The position numbers and the translations under genes are program-made. Below, piece by piece: positions 4,254 to 63,654 of a stretch of 64,000 nt of DNA. The notes beneath the pieces were generated by a model, which was not told where the DNA came from, searched no databases, and was given only the letters and a program-made list of their open reading frames with translations. Each line of letters opens with the position of its first letter. Position 1 is the stretch's first letter. The DNA comes from Balneicella halophila (GTDB lineage Bacteria > Bacteroidota > Bacteroidia > Bacteroidales > Balneicellaceae): contig NZ_QENZ01000005.1 of assembly GCF_003096835.1 (NCBI RefSeq), forward strand, positions 314,669 to 378,668, in the 5' to 3' direction.

Positions 4254-5822
4254 TTATATTTCTTTAATTCTCAGTTTTTGTCCTACACGTAAAGCACTAG
4301 GATTTATAATTTTATTCAATTCCAAAATACTGTCTTGTGTAACTCCTTCATATTTCTGAGCTATTGACCAGCAATTTTCATTTTTCTTTACCGTATGATA
4401 CACATATTTTTCTGGCAAATAAGGTAACTTTTTGTTTTTTCCTTTTGCTTTAACTTTTTTCGTAGATGCTCTATAAGTTTTTGGAGTCTTATTTGTGTAA
4501 ATCACTAATCGCTGTCCAGCTCTTATTCTATCTGAACGTAAACCGTTCCATTTTTTTATATTTCGGACAGTAGTGCCATGTCTTCTCGCAATTCTGCCCA
4601 AATAATCTCCCCTTCGCACCTTATAACTAATACGGGTGCCCGTACCATTCACACCATATGACGGATATATATCTTTTTTCTTCGCAATTAGTTTTCCTTC
4701 ATTAGAGAAATACTCTGACCTGTTGTAGCCATAAATACTATCTTGATAAGAGGCAAACAAACCAGATTCATAGGTCGGCAGTACCAGTCGATAACTTTTA
4801 TTCTCTTTTGCTGGAATATAGCCTTTTAGGTAGGTTCGATTTAGTTCGGCTACATCTTTTTCTTTTAGTCCTAAAACACCAGCAACCTGTCCCAAATGCA
4901 TCGGCTTATCTACCATAACGGTGCGAACATCAGTATATTTCACCATATCACGCATCGGGGCTATCATTAGATCAGTATGATAAAAAAAAGCATAATAAGT
5001 TGCAATATATTTAGGAATATGTCTTCTGGTTTCTCTAGGAAGATGCTCATAAATACTCCAAAAATCATCACCCCCACTTCGCTTAATGGCTTTATTTACA
5101 TTTCCCGGACCACAGTTATAGGCTGCAAGAACCAGTAACCAATCATTGTAAGTCTGGTACAGTTCACGCATATATCGTGCTGATGCTCTAGTAGAAGCTA
5201 TCATATCACAGCGTTGATCAACATTTCCATTTATCTCTAAACCATATTCTTTACCTGTTCCATACATAAATTGCCACAAACCAACAGCACCTGCTTTAGA
5301 CATAATATTTGGAATAAGTGCAGACTCCACAATAGCAGCATATTTTAATTCTTCCGGAACACCTTCTTCACTTAAAATCTGTTCAAAAATTGGAAAGTAC
5401 AATTGAGAAAGAGCAAGCATCTTGCTCATATATTTTCGCCCACTTTTAGACACAAATCTATTGATATATTTTTGAACTTCATCAGTGTATTTCAGCTCTA
5501 CTGAACCACTCATAGCATTCACTTGCAATGCAGTCTGCTCTGGACTGAAAACAGGAAGGTTCTCTTCAGGAACATTCTCAAAAGATGCATAAAGCTCATC
5601 CAAATCAACTTCTTTTTTCTTTTTAGCATCAGCTTCAATTTCTTCATAAAAACTTTTCTCAAAGGCAACTGTCGCTGTATCTTGATAGATTTCCAGTTGC
5701 ATTTCATCAGCTAATGAAACTGAAGTTGATTGTTTATAAGTTATGTCTTTTTGAAAAATAGAACAACTTGATAATATTAAAGATAGAATAAAGCCGTAAA
5801 AGCCATATTTAAGGTAATTCAT
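4254..5822 (-). CDS. mltD: MltD-like membrane-bound lytic murein transglycosylase with LysM repeats
   Basis: A 522-residue lipoprotein with lipobox LSSC and acylation site C20. The soluble lytic transglycosylase domain spans about 140-300: the catalytic glutamate is E166 (AIVESALIPN), followed by SKAGAVGLWQFM and the NYNCGPGN-type motif AAYNCGPGNVNKAI. Two LysM peptidoglycan-binding repeats lie near 400-445 and 475-520. The enzyme cleaves glycan strands to 1,6-anhydroMurNAc ends in the periplasm. It lies four bases after the DUF5683 gene in the parA-parB-DUF5683-mltD run. Confidence 0.92.
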   Translation of the reverse strand: MNYLKYGFYGFILSLILSSCSIFQKDITYKQSTSVSLADEMQLEIYQDTATVAFEKSFYEEIEADAKKKKEVDLDELYASFENVPEENLPVFSPEQTALQVNAMSGSVELKYTDEVQKYINRFVSKSGRKYMSKMLALSQLYFPIFEQILSEEGVPEELKYAAIVESALIPNIMSKAGAVGLWQFMYGTGKEYGLEINGNVDQRCDMIASTRASARYMRELYQTYNDWLLVLAAYNCGPGNVNKAIKRSGGDDFWSIYEHLPRETRRHIPKYIATYYAFFYHTDLMIAPMRDMVKYTDVRTVMVDKPMHLGQVAGVLGLKEKDVAELNRTYLKGYIPAKENKSYRLVLPTYESGLFASYQDSIYGYNRSEYFSNEGKLIAKKKDIYPSYGVNGTGTRISYKVRRGDYLGRIARRHGTTVRNIKKWNGLRSDRIRAGQRLVIYTNKTPKTYRASTKKVKAKGKNKKLPYLPEKYVYHTVKKNENCWSIAQKYEGVTQDSILELNKIINPSALRVGQKLRIKEI

Positions 5823-7383: not shown

Positions 7384-8145
7384 TTATTGTCTTTTAATAA
7401 ACTCATGTGCTAATTCTAGATATTGCTCTGCTCCACGAGAACTAGCATCATAATGCAATGCTGGTTTACCACAACTTGGTGCTTCGCCTAACTTGGTATT
7501 TACATGAATAACTGTTTCAAAAACCATATCTTCAAAATGTGAACGAACATCGTCAGCAACGTCATTTGATAGACGTACTCTAGCGTCAAACATCGTGAGC
7601 AAGAAGCCTTCTATAGCTAATGCTGGATTCAATTGATTTTGTATAATCCGTATTGTGTTGAGCAATTTTCCTAATCCTTCTAAAGAAAGATACTGACACT
7701 GAACAGGAATAATAACCGAATCTGCAGCCGTTAGACTATTAACAGTAACAATTCCTAAAGATGGGGAGCAATCAATAAAAATAAAATCATATTTATCCTT
7801 TATTGGATCTAAAATCTTTTTAAGAATTTTTTCCCTATCCTTCATCTCCAGCATGTCTAATTCTGCTCCAACCAAATTAATATGGGAAGGTATCAAATCC
7901 AAATGGTCATATGGACTATGGATTATCGCTTCTTCAACTGGAACTTGCTCTGAAATACATTGATAAAGACCAGTTGTAACATCATGTTCGTCTATCCCTA
8001 GACAAGACGTTGCATTAGCCTGAGGATCAGCATCAATCACAAGCACTTTCTTTTCTAAAGCAGCTAAACTTGCACTTAAATTTACTGTAGTTGTGGTTTT
8101 CCCTACACCTCCCTTTTGGTTGGCTATTGCAACTATTTTACTCAT
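7384..8145 (-). CDS. parA: Chromosome partitioning ATPase ParA/Soj
   Basis: 253 residues from the ATG at 8145 (MSKIVAIANQKGGVGKTTT). The longest open frame begins 28 residues earlier, but ParA proteins start just before the deviant Walker A, so the internal ATG is preferred. The KGGVGKTT motif carries the signature lysine; the A' motif (VLVIDADPQ) and Walker B (DFIFIDCSPSLG) follow. It forms ATP-dependent dimers on nucleoid DNA and is stimulated by ParB. There are 74 bases between it and the upstream heptose kinase gene. Confidence 0.95.
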   Translation of the reverse strand: MSKIVAIANQKGGVGKTTTTVNLSASLAALEKKVLVIDADPQANATSCLGIDEHDVTTGLYQCISEQVPVEEAIIHSPYDHLDLIPSHINLVGAELDMLEMKDREKILKKILDPIKDKYDFIFIDCSPSLGIVTVNSLTAADSVIIPVQCQYLSLEGLGKLLNTIRIIQNQLNPALAIEGFLLTMFDARVRLSNDVADDVRSHFEDMVFETVIHVNTKLGEAPSCGKPALHYDASSRGAEQYLELAHEFIKRQ

Positions 8146-56669: not shown

Positions 56670-56684
56670 AAATTAAAAACTACA

Positions 56685-56750
56685 CACAACAATGTATATA
56701 CGTCCATCCCTCCCATACGGTCGGCACGGCGCATATACGGGGACGTTGGC
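56685..56750. repeat. attC-like palindrome E1 between the VIT-TSUP and AraC-DHFR modules
   Basis: Left arm CAACAATGTATATACG, right arm GCATATACGGGGACGTTGG. The outer CAAC/GTTG pair and the inner GTATAT/ATATAC pair match, with unequal spacers (2 bases versus 6) that would bulge from one side. This is the shortest of the family. Confidence 0.5.
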
Positions 56751-56780
56751 ATTCATATTAAAGCAACATCCGAAAATTGA

Positions 56781-57527
56781 TTGAAAAACACTAAAACATA
56801 TCGTCCAAATTATCCGCTTAATCAATTCATAGATGTAATTTGGGCAGGCGAATCAGATAATTATGAAATTCAGGCAATTCATCACGCACCTTTGTTCACG
56901 GAATTGATTTTCAATTATGGCGACTCGTTTTCTATAAATGGGCAGAATGTTGAGGAATTCAATTTTCAGAACAATCAACAAATATTATCGGGACTAAAAA
57001 CAAAACCATTCCATACGGAAATTTCGGGCAAATATCTGAACGTTGGACTCATCTTAAAACCGTTTTGTTATGGATTAATAGCAAGGCAAATTAACAGCTC
57101 AAGAATTGGAGATTTATCTGAAATCTTGTTTAAACAGTTTCTTATAAAAGCAAAACCAGATTTAAAGAAAATTGAGAAAGAACTGTTTAAATTATTTCAA
57201 AATTCACGCTTGGAAAATGATTTGATAAAATTTGAGACTTATCTAAATAAAAATATATCTGAACCAAAGAGAATCAAGGATTTTAATAATTTAATTTCTA
57301 TTTCTCAAAAGAGTTTCATTCAAAAATTCAAGAATACTTTTCACATAACACCAAACGAATATTTAAGGTTAAAACAAGTCAATCACGCAATAATTAAAAT
57401 TAATGCCAATAAATATAAAAATCTCACAAGTTTAGGTCTTGACTGTGGCTTTTATGACCAATCGCATTTTATAAGAACATTTAAAAAATATAGTGGATTA
57501 ACACCAAAACAATTTGTGAAAGGGTAA
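56781..57527 (+). CDS. AraC-family transcriptional regulator
   Basis: 248 residues. The C-terminal AraC helix-turn-helix pair spans about 155-248, with TSLGLDCGFYDQSHFIRTFKKYSG and LTPKQF, and a DUF6597-type sensor domain precedes it. No ATG exists in the frame, and a TGA precedes the TTG at 56781, so translation must start at that TTG or another rare codon. The protein has no internal methionine. It sits 30 bases after E1 with little room for a promoter, so it may depend on read-through or on sequence inside the palindrome. The reductase gene follows. Confidence 0.8.
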   Translation: MKNTKTYRPNYPLNQFIDVIWAGESDNYEIQAIHHAPLFTELIFNYGDSFSINGQNVEEFNFQNNQQILSGLKTKPFHTEISGKYLNVGLILKPFCYGLIARQINSSRIGDLSEILFKQFLIKAKPDLKKIEKELFKLFQNSRLENDLIKFETYLNKNISEPKRIKDFNNLISISQKSFIQKFKNTFHITPNEYLRLKQVNHAIIKINANKYKNLTSLGLDCGFYDQSHFIRTFKKYSGLTPKQFVKG

Positions 57528-57559
57528 ATTCTGTACAATTTCGAGGAGTTGAAATTATT

Positions 57560-57567
57560 TAATTTTG
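57560..57567 (+). promoter_or_regulatory. Candidate -7 promoter element for the reductase gene
   Basis: TAATTTTG fits TAnnTTTG, 27 bases before the ATG at 57594, in the 66-base gap after the AraC regulator. A -33 box is not evident. Confidence 0.35.
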
Positions 57568-57593
57568 CACTCAAGTTTAAACAAAGTACAGAT

Positions 57594-58133
57594 ATGGATA
57601 GAAAAAATAAAGTGTTTATAGCAACAAGTTTGGATGGCTATATCGCAGACAAAAATGGTGGGATTGATTGGTTACATTCTATTCCAAATCCTGACAATAA
57701 TGATATGGGATATTTGAAATTCTCTAACGGAATTGATGCACTCGTTATGGGACGAACGACTTTTGAAACCGTAATCAGTTTTGATGTTCCTTGGCCTTAC
57801 ACCAAACCTGTTTTTGTGTTGAGCAATAAACTGAAAGAAATACCTAAATCGCATAAAGACAAGGCGTTTTTAGTCAAAGGAACTCTAATAGAAATTTTAG
57901 AACAAATTCACGGAAGAGGATATGATAGATTATATATTGATGGAGGAACAACAATTAGGAATTTCTTAAAGGAAGATTTGATTGATGAAATGGTTCTTAC
58001 GACTATTCCGATTTTATTAGGTGGTGGTTCTTCCTTGTTTACTGAATTGCCAAACGAGCAGAAATACGAACTGATTGAAACAAAAACCTATCTAAACCAA
58101 ATAATACAGAATCATTTTAAGCGGAAAAGATAA
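57594..58133 (+). CDS. RibD C-terminal/dihydrofolate reductase-like protein
   Basis: 179 residues from the ATG at 57594 (MDRKNKVFIATSLDGYIADK); the TTG-initiated extension lacks family similarity. The DHFR-like features are SLDGYIADKNGGIDWL, the VMGRTTFETV NADPH-binding helix, RLYIDGGTTIRNFL and LTTIPILLGGGSSLF. Proteins of this kind reduce a pterin- or pyrimidine-like substrate with NADPH; trimethoprim resistance is sometimes associated but not shown. It ends ten bases before E2. Confidence 0.85.
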   Translation: MDRKNKVFIATSLDGYIADKNGGIDWLHSIPNPDNNDMGYLKFSNGIDALVMGRTTFETVISFDVPWPYTKPVFVLSNKLKEIPKSHKDKAFLVKGTLIEILEQIHGRGYDRLYIDGGTTIRNFLKEDLIDEMVLTTIPILLGGGSSLFTELPNEQKYELIETKTYLNQIIQNHFKRKR

Positions 58134-58142
58134 AATACGAAA

Positions 58143-58275
58143 TGCCAACAACGTGTATAAGCAATAGCGGTTTGAGTGCAAACTCGAACCGTTTTGTCGT
58201 TTAAATAAAGTATATTGCTATCTGAAAAGTAGTGCTTTAAAAACCGCTACTACTCATACACAAGACCGTTGGGCA
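58143..58275. repeat. attC-like palindrome E2
   Basis: Left arm TGCCAACAACGTGTATAAGC then AATAGCGG; right arm CCGCTACTACT then CATACACAAGACCGTTGGGC. Outer CCAAC/GTTGG, middle GTGTAT/ATACAC and inner TAGCGG/CCGCTA pair. A central hairpin GGTTTGAGTGCAAACTCGAACC-like (58169-58190; GGTT/AACC and GAGT/ACTC) forms the loop. The right end GTTGGGC fits the attC core GTTRRRY. Confidence 0.6.
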
Positions 58276-58348
58276 CAATATTGGCTGAACCGGAAATTGT
58301 CGATTAAATTTACGATATTTGTTTTTAAACAAAAAGAAGATTTTATAA

Positions 58349-59227
58349 ATGGAAATTAGGACTGACATAAAACTTGGAGATAGTAAAAAAATCTTAAAAA
58401 AATTACCTGACAATTCGGTTGACTTAATATTTACTTCACCACCTTATGCTGACCAAAGAAAATCTACTTATGGTGGAATTCATCCAGATAAATATGTTGA
58501 TTGGTTTCTACCGATTTCAGAAGAACTATTCAGAGTTTTGAAACCAACAGGAACATTTGTCCTAAACATAAAGGAAAAAGTTGTCAAAGGAGAAAGAAGC
58601 ACTTATGTAATGGAATTGATTTTGGCAATGAAAAAACAAGGTTGGTTATGGACAGAGGAATTTATTTGGCATAAAAAAAATGCTTTTCCAGGAAAATGGC
58701 CGAATAGATTCAGAGATTCTTGGGAAAGACTTTTGCAGTTCAATAAAGATAAAAAATTTAATATGTACCAAGAAGAAGTTATGGTACCTATGGGAGATTG
58801 GGCAAAAACAAGACTTAAAAACTTGAGTGAAACCGACAAAAAAAGAGATGAATCTAAAGTTGGTAGTGGTTTTGGAAAAAATATATCTAATTGGGTTGAT
58901 AGAAAAATGGCATATCCAACTAACGTATTACATTTAGCAACTGAATGTAATAATAAAAACCATAGTGCAGCTTTTCCAGAGTCTTTACCTGAATGGTTCA
59001 TCAAACTATTTACCGAACAAGAAGATGTTGTGTTAGACCCATTTATGGGTTCAGGAACAACAAATTTTGTAGCACAGAGAATGAACAGAAATTCGATTGG
59101 AATTGAAATCTTGCCAGAGTATTACAATATGGTTAAAGAACAAATAGAACCAACCAAATTAATATTATTAGAACCAGAAGACGAATATGAATCAACTGAA
59201 CTTAACGGACGTCACGCAGTACGTTGA
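58349..59227 (+). CDS. Type II DNA methyltransferase, SPPY (probable N4-cytosine) class
   Basis: 292 residues. The catalytic motif is S30-P-P-Y33 near the N-terminus and the SAM-binding motif DPFMGSGTT is at 230-238, so this is a beta-class amino-methyltransferase with motif IV before motif I. TSPPY favours N4-cytosine, although some such enzymes modify adenine. The target recognition region lies between (about 60-220). It should protect host sites against the endonuclease encoded downstream, which overlaps it by 41 bases. It begins 74 bases after E2. Confidence 0.93.
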   Translation: MEIRTDIKLGDSKKILKKLPDNSVDLIFTSPPYADQRKSTYGGIHPDKYVDWFLPISEELFRVLKPTGTFVLNIKEKVVKGERSTYVMELILAMKKQGWLWTEEFIWHKKNAFPGKWPNRFRDSWERLLQFNKDKKFNMYQEEVMVPMGDWAKTRLKNLSETDKKRDESKVGSGFGKNISNWVDRKMAYPTNVLHLATECNNKNHSAAFPESLPEWFIKLFTEQEDVVLDPFMGSGTTNFVAQRMNRNSIGIEILPEYYNMVKEQIEPTKLILLEPEDEYESTELNGRHAVR

Positions 59228-59924
59228 AGAAAACATAGGAACATTTCACCAAAAAAGAATTGAACGATTAAATAAACTCAAATTAAAAACCGTTCTAAAA
59301 AAGAAAAACCCTTATTTATTTAAAGCAAAACACTTATTAACAGCTAACGAAATCGTACAAGGAATTGCAGATGCATATATTTCGTCTGGTGAAGAAACAA
59401 TATTTGGTGATTGGTTAGAAGGTCTTGCTATTTTTATTAATCAAAAAGTATATGGTGGTTGGAAATCTGGAATTCCAAATATCGATTTAGAATTTGATAA
59501 AGACAACGCTCGTTACATTGTTAATATAAAATCTGGCCCAAATTGGGGAAACAGTAGTCAAATTTCTAAAATGAAATCCGATTTTAAAACAGCTCAACGA
59601 ACATTAAGAACCAGTAATTCCAATCTAATGGTTGTTTCGATAAATGGTTGTTGTTATGGAATTGACAATCGACCAGACAAAGGAGATTATTTCAAATATT
59701 GCGGACAGGAATTTTGGGAATTTGTTTCTGGAAACTCTGATTTATATACTGAAATAATTGAACCGCTTGGACACAAATCTAAAGAAAGAAATGATGAATT
59801 TATGGAATCATACTCGAATATGATTAATAAATTTACGAGAGATTTCATTAAAGACTTTTGTAAATCAAACGGAGAAATCGATTGGATAAAATTGGTCGAA
59901 TTTAACTCTGGAAAAAAGAAATAA
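59187..59924 (+). CDS. PmeII-like type II restriction endonuclease
   Basis: 245 residues. The segment EETIFGDWLEGLAIFINQKVYGGWKSGIPNIDLEF, then YIVNIKSGPNWGNSSQISKM (about 110-129), is the pattern of PmeII-family restriction enzymes. A PD-(D/E)xK-type core is suggested by D100 and K115 (NIK), with Asn in place of the usual Glu/Asp. The recognition site is not deducible. It overlaps the methyltransferase by 41 bases and ends seven bases before E3, so the pair sits exactly between two palindromes. Confidence 0.85.
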   Translation: MNQLNLTDVTQYVEENIGTFHQKRIERLNKLKLKTVLKKKNPYLFKAKHLLTANEIVQGIADAYISSGEETIFGDWLEGLAIFINQKVYGGWKSGIPNIDLEFDKDNARYIVNIKSGPNWGNSSQISKMKSDFKTAQRTLRTSNSNLMVVSINGCCYGIDNRPDKGDYFKYCGQEFWEFVSGNSDLYTEIIEPLGHKSKERNDEFMESYSNMINKFTRDFIKDFCKSNGEIDWIKLVEFNSGKKK

Positions 59925-59931
59925 AATACTG

Positions 59932-60067
59932 TGCCCAACAATGGCTATAAGTAATTGCTTGTTCTCGCCTACTTCTGAAAATCCTCGCGGATTTTCAGCT
60001 TGGTGTATAATTGCAAAGTTAAGTACTAACCCACGCAACTACTCATAGCCGAGACCGTTGTGTTTCA
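59932..60067. repeat. attC-like palindrome E3
   Basis: Left arm TGCCCAACAATGGCTATAAG then TAATTGC; right arm GCAACTACT then CATAGCCGAGACCGTTGTG. Outer CAAC/GTTG, middle GGCTAT/ATAGCC and GCAA-type inner ends pair, with bulged spacers. A perfect inner hairpin (CTGAAAATCC with GGATTTTCAG, 59975-59998) forms the loop. The left end GCCCAAC fits RYYYAAC. Confidence 0.6.
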
Positions 60068-60103
60068 TGCAAAGAGAGACAGTGCAACTAAAGCCAACGC
60101 ACA

Positions 60104-60164
60104 TTTGGCACATTTGCAAGCCCAAACACACAAAGCTGACGCTTCAGCTTGCAAAAGAGCCAAA
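60104..60164. repeat. Hairpin H1 immediately upstream of the Argonaute gene
   Basis: Two 18-base arms: TTTGGCACATTTGCAAGC and GCTTGCAAAAGAGCCAAA. They pair along their full length except for two A-A mismatches, giving an internal loop ACA opposite AGA. The same internal mismatch occurs in H2 after the SIR2 gene. It ends 32 bases before the Argonaute ATG. Confidence 0.7.
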
Positions 60165-60196
60165 TTTAACAAGCCCACAGTGGAAATAGATATGAT

Positions 60197-62083
60197 ATGA
60201 GTAACATTAGATTAAATTTTTTACCAATTACTGACCAAGAGTTTGAATTCAATATCTATAGGAAAGAGATTGAAGGAGCAATAGAGAAGAACTCTGGATT
60301 AAAATGGTATAGATTGTTTCCTGATTCTGAGGCAACAGAAAGAAAGAACTATTATGTGTCTACTGATAAAGAAGACGGATTTGAGAGTTTTTCTTGCCAC
60401 CCGAACCATAATATTGATTTAACAAAATGGTACTTATTTGAATCGTTAAAGAAATCTGTAACAAATTCAAACTTAACTATTGAATACTCTTTTTATCAAC
60501 GACATAAAATAAACGAAATTCAGTTTACTGTAAATGAATTTAATGAAGGGAAACAATTAGTGATTTTATCTCCATACTATCTTCGGCAAGAAGATAAGCA
60601 TGGTTTCTTAATTGATTTCAAATTTCGCAAAGCTGAAAATACATCATTTAATAAGGAGGTACAACGTCTCAGTTTAAGCTTGGATGAAAAATATAGAAGT
60701 AATAAAAACTACTATTTGGATAAGCATAGACTATTTCAAGGTTTTCTAAAAAGTAATTTTCAATCCATTAAATCCTTTAATATATCAGATTCGGTAATTA
60801 ACCTTAGCGATGAATTAATGTCTGTTTCTTGCAATCATTTAGACAAGAAACAATATATATTTTCTAAGAATAGGACTTCAAGTTCGCAATTTTTAGGAAT
60901 AAAAAATTATGGTCCTTTAAACATAGTATCGGACGACGTACAGTTTGTTTTTATATTTGAAGATAGGTTCAAAACATTCGCAAATGATATTTTTCTTAGC
61001 TTGATTGGTAAAGCAAACCCTGGCACATTTCCAGGAATGGAGGCTATGTTTAAGATAAAGCTCGATAAAACAAAAGTGAAAAGGGTTTCAATATCAGATT
61101 ATTCAAATCCAGAACTTTTGAAAGCAGTTGATAAGGTTGTTGAGTTTTCAAAAGATAAAAAAACAATTGCCGTATTTATTGAGGATTATTCAGAGGAAGA
61201 AGGAAATTCAGAGCCGTATTACTTTCTAAAGTATCAATTCTTAAAGAAGGATATTCCTTTACAAGTCTTAAACTATCAGAAATTAAGTGCTAGAAATACT
61301 CTAAAATGGTCAACCTCCAACATAGGATTACAAGTTTTCTCTAAGCTTGGGGGAAAACCTTGGATTGTTAAACCTTCGAATACTGACTGTCTAATTCTTG
61401 GGATTGGTTCTTCTCATAAGAAAGATAAAGAAACAGGTAAAATACAGAGATTCTTTGCTTACTCAATTTGTCTTGATTCATCGGGTCTTTATAAGAAACT
61501 TGAAGTACTTGCTGAAGACGAAGATGAAACAAATTACCTACAGAGTCTACAAAATGGCTTAGTTCAGTTATTATCAAATGATGATTTCTCAAATTATAAA
61601 AGTTGCGTTTTACACCTACCATTTAAAATAAAACGGTCAGAAATAAAAGCATTAGAGCAAGCCATTAATGAAGTGTCTAATCTTGATTTTACAGTTGTTA
61701 AGATTAATGTTGACAATAGGTTTTTTGGTTTTAGTAATCACAATACTTTAGTCCCGTATGAAAGTAGTTATATTCAACTAGCGAGTAACCAGTTTTTAGT
61801 TTGGTTTGAGGGATTAAATTACGGTAAAGAGATTGTTGACAAGCGTTTATCAAATCCTGTACATTTAGAATTTCTCAATATTGGGGCAAGAGTAGAAGAT
61901 TATAAATCTTATTTGCAAGACATAATTAATCTTTCAGGCGCAAATTGGAGAGGATTTAATGCTAAATCTGTTCCTATCTCAATATATTATTCAAAAATAA
62001 TTACAGAATACATTTCTGAGTTTGGTGATATTGTAGATGTTGAGCAAATGTCTGTTACTAATGATAAACCTTGGTTTTTATAG
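60197..62083 (+). CDS. Long-type prokaryotic Argonaute with inactive PIWI domain
   Basis: 628 residues. The MID domain (about 325-390) keeps the guide 5'-phosphate pocket residues in canonical spacing: Y341, K345 and Q356, plus K370. The conserved SNIGLQVFSKLGGKPWIV follows. The PIWI domain (about 395-628) has LGIGSS with Gly404 where active enzymes have Asp, VVKINVD in place of the catalytic Asp motif near 503, and YYSK near 599 in place of YADL. So target slicing is not expected, as in long-B pAgos. The N-terminal half includes a GFLIDFKF..RLSLSLDEKYRSNK part and a reduced PAZ region. It likely uses a guide to recognise invader nucleic acid and signal to SIR2. Confidence 0.85.
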   Translation: MSNIRLNFLPITDQEFEFNIYRKEIEGAIEKNSGLKWYRLFPDSEATERKNYYVSTDKEDGFESFSCHPNHNIDLTKWYLFESLKKSVTNSNLTIEYSFYQRHKINEIQFTVNEFNEGKQLVILSPYYLRQEDKHGFLIDFKFRKAENTSFNKEVQRLSLSLDEKYRSNKNYYLDKHRLFQGFLKSNFQSIKSFNISDSVINLSDELMSVSCNHLDKKQYIFSKNRTSSSQFLGIKNYGPLNIVSDDVQFVFIFEDRFKTFANDIFLSLIGKANPGTFPGMEAMFKIKLDKTKVKRVSISDYSNPELLKAVDKVVEFSKDKKTIAVFIEDYSEEEGNSEPYYFLKYQFLKKDIPLQVLNYQKLSARNTLKWSTSNIGLQVFSKLGGKPWIVKPSNTDCLILGIGSSHKKDKETGKIQRFFAYSICLDSSGLYKKLEVLAEDEDETNYLQSLQNGLVQLLSNDDFSNYKSCVLHLPFKIKRSEIKALEQAINEVSNLDFTVVKINVDNRFFGFSNHNTLVPYESSYIQLASNQFLVWFEGLNYGKEIVDKRLSNPVHLEFLNIGARVEDYKSYLQDIINLSGANWRGFNAKSVPISIYYSKIITEYISEFGDIVDVEQMSVTNDKPWFL

Positions 62084-62085
62084 AT

Positions 62086-63144
62086 ATGGAAATAAAAGGC
62101 GAACAAATAATGTTTTTATTAGGTGCTGGAGCCAGCTTTGAAGCAAAGATTCCAATATCTAATCAAATGGTTGGTGAAATTGAAAAACTAATAATAGAAG
62201 ATTCTGATTGGCGACCTTATAAGGAGCTTTATTATTACCTTAAAAGTTCAATACATTACTCTGAAGGTATATTTGGCAAATTTGGTGAGCCATTTAATGT
62301 TGAGAAATTATTAGTTGTAATCTCTGAAATAGAAAAACGCGATAGAAATATTGTTTACCCATTCATTGGCTCTTGGAACATAAGATTAATAGACTTAGCA
62401 GGAAGTGATTTCAAAAAAATTACGGATTTCAAGAAATTGATTCGGAAGAAATTGAATAGTTGGGTTCGTGTTAAAAACTATGAAAATGACGCCAGTTATT
62501 ACAACGGTTTTATCACACTATCAAGAGAAATTGGTAATGCAGTAAAAGTATTTACATTCAATTATGATTTATGCTTTGAAAGAGTGGTTGGTAAGGAACT
62601 TCAAGTTGAAACAGGGTTTAATAGAACTTCAAGAGAATGGCACTATAGCAATTTTGAGGATAGTCTGGAAAAACATTTTTTCTTATATAAATTACATGGT
62701 TCAATTGACTGGTATACAAAACCAGATGAACCTAATAAACTCTTTCAAAGTGATGAACCCGAAGATAATCCAGAATTGATATTTGGAATTCAGAATAAGT
62801 TAGACTCAATTGACCCTTACTTTTTCTATACTTCAGAGCTAAGAAAATCGACACTTGAAGACTCTAAATTGATTGTAACAATTGGTTATAGTTTTTCGGA
62901 TGATTATGCAAATAAAATACTGACTCAAGCATTAAATTCGAAAGATGACTTACGACTTTTAGCGGTTGGATATTCAAATAGTCCTGAAAAAACTGAAATA
63001 GAACTAATTCAGAAAAGACTTGATTTAAAGAGTGACAACCAAATAAGTGTATACCTTAATGGAGCAAAAAGCTTTATGACTGATACAATGAATAAAGACT
63101 ATTTATCTGATTTTATTACTAATTCAAAAGATGCCCCCTTCTAA
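62086..63144 (+). CDS. SIR2-domain effector partner of the Argonaute
   Basis: 352 residues from the ATG at 62086, three bases after the Argonaute stop. NAD-site motifs are FLLGAGASF (GAGAS at 13-17), TFNYD (N159, D161) and KLHGS with H204. IGYSFSDDYANKIL near 267-278 completes the Rossmann fold. The catalytic residues are all present. SIR2 partners of inactive pAgos deplete cellular NAD+ upon target recognition, causing abortive infection; this is the expected role, not shown. The frame opens 15 bases earlier (MVFID), overlapping the Argonaute end, but the later ATG is cleaner. Confidence 0.88.
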   Translation: MEIKGEQIMFLLGAGASFEAKIPISNQMVGEIEKLIIEDSDWRPYKELYYYLKSSIHYSEGIFGKFGEPFNVEKLLVVISEIEKRDRNIVYPFIGSWNIRLIDLAGSDFKKITDFKKLIRKKLNSWVRVKNYENDASYYNGFITLSREIGNAVKVFTFNYDLCFERVVGKELQVETGFNRTSREWHYSNFEDSLEKHFFLYKLHGSIDWYTKPDEPNKLFQSDEPEDNPELIFGIQNKLDSIDPYFFYTSELRKSTLEDSKLIVTIGYSFSDDYANKILTQALNSKDDLRLLAVGYSNSPEKTEIELIQKRLDLKSDNQISVYLNGAKSFMTDTMNKDYLSDFITNSKDAPF

Positions 63145-63146
63145 GC

Positions 63147-63205
63147 CATGCACATTAAGCAAACCCACATATCAACCGCACAACCAAATTTGCTTAAAGA
63201 GCATG
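63147..63205. repeat. Hairpin H2 immediately downstream of the SIR2 gene
   Basis: Two 17-base arms: CATGCACATTAAGCAAA and TTTGCTTAAAGAGCATG. Pairing is full except for ACA opposite AGA, exactly the internal loop of H1. It starts two bases after the SIR2 stop. Its loop is C-rich (CCCACATATCAACCGCAC). Confidence 0.7.
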
Positions 63206-63249
63206 TTTTCCCAACGCATGAGGAGACAGAAATGATAAAGCACGAAAAC

Positions 63250-63375
63250 ACAACAATGTGTATAGTGCATAAGGGTTTTAGAGGTTTTCGAGCGGTATCA
63301 CCCGCATTTATTTTTAGTGGTAACTTGATTGGTTTGAAGCCCGCAATCCCTTACGACACCATACACTCAACGATG
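63250..63375. repeat. attC-like palindrome E4
   Basis: Left arm CAACAATGTGTATAGTGC then ATAAGGG; right arm CCCTTACGA then CACCATACACTCAACG. GTGTAT/ATACAC, GTG/CAC and TAAGGG/CCCTTA pair. The left arm is a close match to the left arms of E1 and E2; the right end lacks the GTTG core, so the element is partly worn or split by the adjacent repeat. Confidence 0.5.
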
Positions 63376-63459
63376 ATATAGCATTCGCCTGCGGCGAACA
63401 AAACTCCTACATTTTCGCTTCACTCAAATTCCCGTCCTTTTGTAAATGCTATATCATCG
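63371..63459. repeat. Perfect 14-bp inverted repeat pair
   Basis: CGATGATATAGCAT (63371-63384) is the exact reverse complement of ATGCTATATCATCG (63446-63459). The loop contains a second small hairpin (CGCC-TGC-GGCG). It overlaps the end of E4 and the start of the next inverted repeat. Confidence 0.7.
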
Positions 63460-63654
63460 CAGTGCTATGCCAATTGCATATACCTCTATAAGCTAAAAAA
63501 AACACTATCATCAAACAACGCCGCCACGGCGAAATTCACGCTACACATCATTTGCTATATGCAATTGGTTGCTATTTTTTTGTTCCAAACAAGATAAAAT
63601 CTAACGATTTTAATTATCTTCACAAAAAAACAGACAACTACACATAGCACTGCG
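63458..63654. repeat. Perfect 12-bp inverted repeat enclosing a second inverted repeat
   Basis: CGCAGTGCTATG (63458-63469) is the exact reverse complement of CATAGCACTGCG (63643-63654). The interior holds the 13-bp pair at 63470-63568 and an AT-rich tail. The right end continues GTTAGCG, and the next gene starts 41 bases later. Confidence 0.65.
63470..63568. repeat. Perfect 13-bp inverted repeat nested in the 12-bp pair
   Basis: CCAATTGCATATA (63470-63482) is the exact reverse complement of TATATGCAATTGG (63556-63568). The left arms of this and the outer pair abut, so together they form a branched palindrome. GCCGCCACGGC in the loop forms a further small stem. Confidence 0.65.

Follow-up and report, generated by a model that had tools for sequence, protein, structure and literature searches.

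A predicted long-B Argonaute–SIR2 defence operon carried as a precisely bounded cassette in an integron-like array

The window, by which we mean the whole 64,000-nt stretch of Balneicella halophila DNA analysed here, contains an Argonaute gene (Ago) followed by a SIR2 gene. With a probability of roughly 0.8, we interpret this pair as an abortive-infection system of the BPAS type (long-B prokaryotic Argonaute, pAgo, with SIR2) that is carried as one mobile cassette. The sequence-only reading had recognised a system of this type, in which an inactive pAgo of long-B character shares an operon with a SIR2, and this part is borne out by profile ranking, fold and gene pairing; what it missed is that the operon is an exchanged cassette bounded by attC sites. 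What is new is that Ago-SIR2 is packaged as a cassette that is exchanged between genomes, within an integron-like array whose candidate integrase is non-canonical. Feature coordinates are collected in Table 1.

Table 1. Features of the Ago-SIR2 cassette, its array and the associated recombinase (window positions unless a locus is named)
Feature	Position	Strand	Remarks
Ago ORF	60197-62083	+	628 aa; predicted catalytically inactive, PAZ-less, long-B-type prokaryotic Argonaute
SIR2 ORF	62086-63144	+	352 aa from ATG; SIR2-like (SIR2_2), predicted NADase effector; catalytic-motif N159, H204
Whole Ago-SIR2 cassette	60058-63372	+	3,315 bp; from TTGTGT (right part of upstream R' box) to G of own R' box
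Cassette 5' leader	60064-60196	+	inverted repeat 60103-60121 / 60147-60165; comparable leaders recur elsewhere in the order
attC of Ago-SIR2 cassette	63248-63378	+	R'' ACACAAC 63248-63254; recombination point after G63372; R1 58.8 bits, E 3e-12
Type II restriction-modification (R-M) cassette	58269-60057	+	R'' GCCCAAC 59933 complements GTTGGGC 58268
N6/N4 DNA methyltransferase	58349-59227	+	Pfam 4.8e-46
EcoO109I-family restriction endonuclease	59187-59924	+	Pfam RE_EcoO109I 1.9e-91
attC of preceding R-M cassette	59933-60063	+	R' GTTGTGT (60057-60063) = left junction of Ago cassette; R1 training member, 116.6 bits; bottom-strand fold z -4.2
attC of AraC/RibD-domain cassette (56746-58268)	58143-58274	+	R1 115.7 bits
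First recognised attC of array, short type	56684-56751	+	R1 30.7 bits, E 5e-5
Small cassette-like unit, no obvious gene	63373-63653	+	start G|ATGATA; R'' TATCATC 63452; next R' GTTAGCG 63654
TrlF-family AAA-like ATPase, own cassette	L051:15273-18233 (C5, just beyond window)		621 bits; likely a further array-borne defence gene
Tyrosine recombinase	G000:C5:22756-23829 (= L036:1246-2319), outside window		XerA/IntI4-like; without IntI-specific domain; ~2.5 kb from nearest attC

RESULTS

An inactive Argonaute paired with a SIR2 protein

Both open reading frames lie on the plus strand where the pair was first read, and in the sequence of the window the Ago stop is separated from the SIR2 ATG (62086) by 2 nt. 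No Bacteroidota -33/-7 promoter pattern was found upstream of the operon. Pfam places a Piwi domain in Ago residues 336–605 (E = 2.9e-14) and SIR2_2 in the partner (E = 7.4e-12), while PADLOC recognises Ago as pAgo_II (853 bits, full length) and SIR2 as Aga_SIR2 (476 bits, nearly full length); the system type had therefore already been catalogued by 2023.

The residues singled out from the sequence alone hold up across 24 aligned relatives. Within the guide 5'-phosphate pocket, which had been called intact, Y341, K345 and Q356 never vary, K370 is kept in 23/24, and nearly all of the chains end in WFL/I. The claimed losses of PIWI catalytic positions are shared by the relatives at both Asp sites: the first catalytic Asp is replaced by Gly or Ser in every one, and acid is not conserved in the second-Asp region (503–506), where N504 alone is nearly invariant. 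Position 600 is variable, and K600 alone could formally be the 'X' of DEDX. Since both catalytic Asp positions are lost, slicing by Ago should be abolished. On the SIR2 side, N159 and H204 are found in every one of the 24 proteins and the motifs GAG.S, N159-Y-D, H204-G-S and G-Y-[SG]-F are conserved, in agreement with the full set of NAD-site motifs described at the outset.

Class and structure of the Ago

The family profile ranks AfAgo (5e-33), EcAgo (5e-29) and RsAgo (3e-16), all of them long-B, at the top, with A. aeolicus Ago at 1e-8 and a short pAgo at 2e-7; long-A, eukaryotic PIWI and short pAgos thus all lie far below long-B. Structure prediction, which had been proposed as a check, yielded an AlphaFold model of Ago (pLDDT 88, pTM 0.85) for which RsAgo is the top Foldseek match in the PDB (5e-27, TM 0.71–0.72). 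In a tree without a named long-A reference, the Ago family is a single clade (support 100/99) separate from the other 14 pAgos included, of which 12 come from Bacteroidota-phylum genomes and two from plasmids; the entry L075 is the Melioribacteraceae copy again. The long-B assignment that had been made from the sequence is consistent with profile and fold.

The PAZ region, by contrast, had been described as reduced. It is changed, but the domain appears to be absent: Pfam detects none in Ago, and PAZ is probably gone because in the model ∼27 residues link the L1 strands to the L2 helix. Also missing are the ∼83–92 residues that precede the shared region in EcAgo and RsAgo. Single-chain long-B pAgos without PAZ have been described before (PMC10954474).

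Nor is the protein a divergent Bacteroidota form, as had been supposed. Relatives of similar length, mostly 614–639 aa, were found in Bacillota, Pseudomonadota, Thermodesulfobacteriota, Acidobacteriota, Chloroflexota, Nitrospirota, Spirochaetota, Cyanobacteriota, Ignavibacteriota and others; with members in at least 10 phyla, the clade is not a Bacteroidota oddity. Searches of viral and phage collections returned no Ago relatives.

The SIR2 partner and alternative assignments of the pair

All 23 other genomes in which Ago was found also have the SIR2, and in the loci worked out by coordinates SIR2 lies directly downstream of Ago. The same order is seen in the PLSDB annotation of Hymenobacter plasmids ('Piwi domain-containing protein', then 'SIR2 family protein'). 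In Leptolyngbya, the last third of the SIR2 gene (L007:7932-8846) is seemingly frameshifted and the annotated protein is without the family's C-terminal part. The SIR2 model (pLDDT 86.6) is closest in fold to the SIR2 of Sir2-HerA antiphage complexes, with DSR2, SPARSA and ThsA further off.

The closest gammaproteobacterial relatives (L017 and L018) are ∼38–39% identical to Ago, and its N-terminal 230 aa find no match by sequence among PDB chains. Such distance would fit a different pAgo-SIR2 lineage, in which Ago represses or silences DNA without NAD+ suicide or in which SIR2 makes a signal. We regard this as unlikely given the invariance of the SIR2 catalytic-motif residues over the 24 proteins, the Sir2-HerA-like fold and the BPAS gene order. 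An inactive MID-PIWI and a SIR2 are also what the pair shares with SPARSA-like short pAgo systems, which consist of SIR2-APAZ and a short Ago. This assignment was rejected as scarcely credible, as the domain layout contradicts it: the SIR2 here is a single-domain protein without APAZ, Ago is not short and has its own N-terminal region ahead of MID-PIWI, and SPARSA short pAgo chains rank far under long-B by both profile and fold. By every sequence and structural feature tested, the pair appears to be a new BPAS member.

Cassette boundaries and a near-identical copy in Geofilum

The operon is also borne by Geofilum rhodophaeum on contig NZ_MWUJ01000027 (L009), with a DNA identity of 99.8% over the cassette and 5 mismatches in the 2,948 bp of the coding part. 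Identity begins at ...ACCG|TTGTGT on the left (window 60058) and ends at ...CTCAACG| on the right (window 63372), so that at both ends the boundary lies at G|TT of an R' box, where an integron cassette would be delimited. Beyond both edges the cassette neighbours differ between the two genomes, and their SppA proteins are 42% identical, compared with 99.8% for the cassette. The Ago-SIR2 cassette has therefore been transferred horizontally, recently and as one bounded unit, between distantly related bacteria.

Since the genome of the window is a draft in which arrays are broken over small contigs, contamination or misassembly might be invoked for the Geofilum copy and its sharp boundaries. This is very improbable: the copies differ at 5 sites, they sit among different neighbours in continuous sequence with breaks exactly at G|TT on both sides, and each genome has numerous additional attC sites together with its own array-linked recombinases. 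Separately, the leader (60090-60167) and tail (63144-63372) of the cassette show ∼84–93% identity to DNA of other genomes without Ago.

attC sites of the array

The junctions sit within imperfect palindromes, mostly of 131–133 nt. At the Ago cassette, ACACAAC of the 3' site is the exact complement of the GTTGTGT with which the cassette starts, and the pattern holds in seven consecutive units (7/7), each having a 3' site whose first 7 nt are exactly reverse-complementary to the bases with which that unit begins. Complementarity between R'' and a cassette's own start is a mark of circular cassette integration in integrons. In the adjacent unit without an obvious gene (63373-63653), the variant core boxes GATGATA and TATCATC nonetheless complement each other.

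When six sites are aligned as bottom strands, they share an 18-bp stem with 96% of cells paired and 11 pairs changed on both sides, a covariation reached by 0/500 shuffles. A covariance model (R1) was built from these six sites with Ago's own site left out; it scores the Geofilum copy of the Ago attC at 69.7 bits, and it places all attC sites of the window's array in one direction. An Rfam search of the array gave no match. The layout, with R-box pairing, a G after AAC, an asymmetric unpaired spacer and a variable loop, matches published attC sites (PMC2727003). The window-type consensus has two invariant G-T pairs and no extrahelical bases or single-base bulges; these pairs, which become A-C mismatches on the top strand, could set strand preference.

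R1 detects 31 attC sites in the window's genome, located on small contigs and towards either end of contig C5, and 73 in Geofilum. It also has matches in 39/60 same-order genomes, distributed over most of the order's families, an indication that the platform is widespread and may go unnoticed in standard integron searches.

Neighbouring cassettes and other cassette-borne BPAS operons

Besides the units in Table 1, neighbouring cassettes encode a zinc-ribbon protein and a beta-lactamase-fold protein. R-M homologues of ∼75% identity occur in other genomes, and R1 found no sites in the three such loci tested. Two further BPAS operons lie in attC-flanked cassettes. In Pedobacter segetis (L012), GTTATAA at 623 matches TTATAAC at 8109, and the 7.6-kb unit (L012:624-8237) also contains an HTH-methyltransferase and an N6 DNA methylase, the next cassette holding a HigBA-like pair. 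In Melioribacteraceae (L010), GTTATAA at 2553 matches TTATAAC at 5715; the sites, which were spotted by eye and not by R1, have predicted folds with single-base bulges as in classical attC. Applied to the loci of Ago relatives from other phyla, R1 found no attC save in Pedobacter.

A candidate integrase without the IntI-specific domain

The tyrosine recombinase on C5 aligns to TIGR02249 only at positions 2–176 and 239–315 of the profile, scoring 202 bits against a cut-off of 265; IntI4 likewise aligns to it in two pieces, and the IntI insertion is missing. No protein in the window's genome or in Geofilum reaches the integron-integrase cut-off. Geofilum also has tyrosine recombinases near its arrays on C1 and C2. 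Counting matches above 139 bits, from which XerC/D-like matches are clearly apart at 116 or less, a recombinase of this kind is present in 24/60 same-order genomes. Sites matching attC are found in 22 of these 24 and in 17 of the other 36 (Fisher p 0.0004), and in at least nine genomes recombinase and attC share a contig within ∼5 kb. By hit length, the near-full-length recombinase matches inspected have no room for the 40-aa insertion. These observations make the recombinase the best candidate integrase for the arrays.

The abundance of the R1 family within the order and the absence of a canonical IntI next to the array might instead indicate that the operon moved by homologous recombination between hairpins that are no more than dispersed repeats of a REP- or MITE-like kind. 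This is distinctly improbable. Homologous recombination is not expected to stop inside the core G|TT, the exact match of R'' to the start of its own unit recurs in Pedobacter and Melioribacteraceae, the sites of the array share one direction, and the recombinase tracks attC among genomes. Site-specific recombination at G|TT would explain the near-identical Geofilum copy. The arrays would work like integrons but depart from them in one defining feature: the recombinase is without the IntI-specific domain.

DISCUSSION

Our results suggest how the operon may act and how it may spread. The inactive Ago would load a 5'-phosphorylated guide in its MID pocket, which by homology with studied relatives is probably RNA, and would, again by homology, hold SIR2 in check. 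Once the guide paired with DNA of a plasmid or phage, SIR2 would be released, and the freed enzyme is predicted to destroy NAD+ such that the cell is stopped or killed before the invader spreads. Both genes would travel jointly between attC-type sites, with recombination at G|TT inserting or excising the unit, possibly through the recombinase described above.

Integrons have reportedly been recognised as stores of antiphage systems in 2025, and the general idea is thus not new. A search of the open literature, by title, abstract and selected passages, brought up no report of an Argonaute cassette in an integron and none of this recombinase. The significance of the present case is that a complete Argonaute immune system moves as a single cassette with exact borders, and movement of this kind would account for the patchy distribution of such systems among phyla. 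A second implication is that Bacteroidota have a large cassette platform. The only complete integron that IntegronFinder 2.0 reported from Bacteroidetes proper is that of Salinibacter ruber (PMC9024848), and activity is considered to require the IntI domain (Messier and Roy 2001, as cited in PMC9668308); integrase action on a folded attC without this domain now becomes directly testable. The chances are about even that many Bacteroidota have a second kind of integron, in which strand choice rests on G-T wobbles in attC and the recombinase is Xer-like without the IntI-specific domain, and which circulates whole immune operons, including Argonaute-SIR2, between distant hosts.

Among characterised systems, the closest parallel is BPAS, the name given by Song et al. 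2023 to pairs of a long-B pAgo and a bAgaS SIR2 (PMC10620215). In GbBPAS, the SIR2 alone kills, Ago silences it, a plasmid is the trigger, NAD+ falls and N155A abolishes the effect (PMC10620215). As in BPAS, an inactive long-B-like Ago comes first, with a SIR2_2 protein directly after it, and the catalytic Asn has its counterpart, N159 here corresponding to N155 in GbBPAS; in the gammaproteobacterial relative L018 this Asn lies at or near 155, as it does by description in GbAgaS. The NAD+-depletion mechanism is, by analogy, most likely the same. What differs is that the operon here is an attC-bounded cassette; the comparison with GbAgo/GbAgaS is by description, and function here is predicted.

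AfAgo/AfAgo-N and RsAgo are the closest solved relatives by sequence and fold, and share with the present Ago an inactive PIWI and, as in the AfAgo complex (PMC10954474), an N-L1-L2 arrangement without PAZ; unlike AfAgo with AfAgo-N, Ago here is a single chain with a SIR2 partner. SPARSA resembles the pair in that an inactive Ago steers a SIR2 effector, but it differs in having APAZ and in its SIR2 family, the BPAS and SPARSA groups of SIR2 being only distantly related (PMC10620215). With chromosomal integrons and CALIN arrays, the cassettes share cores of the RYYYAAC/GTTRRRY type, the G after AAC, the unpaired spacer, the bottom-strand hairpin and a single cassette direction, whereas the nearby recombinase does without the IntI-specific domain and in the window-type attC two invariant G-T wobbles take the place of extrahelical bases.
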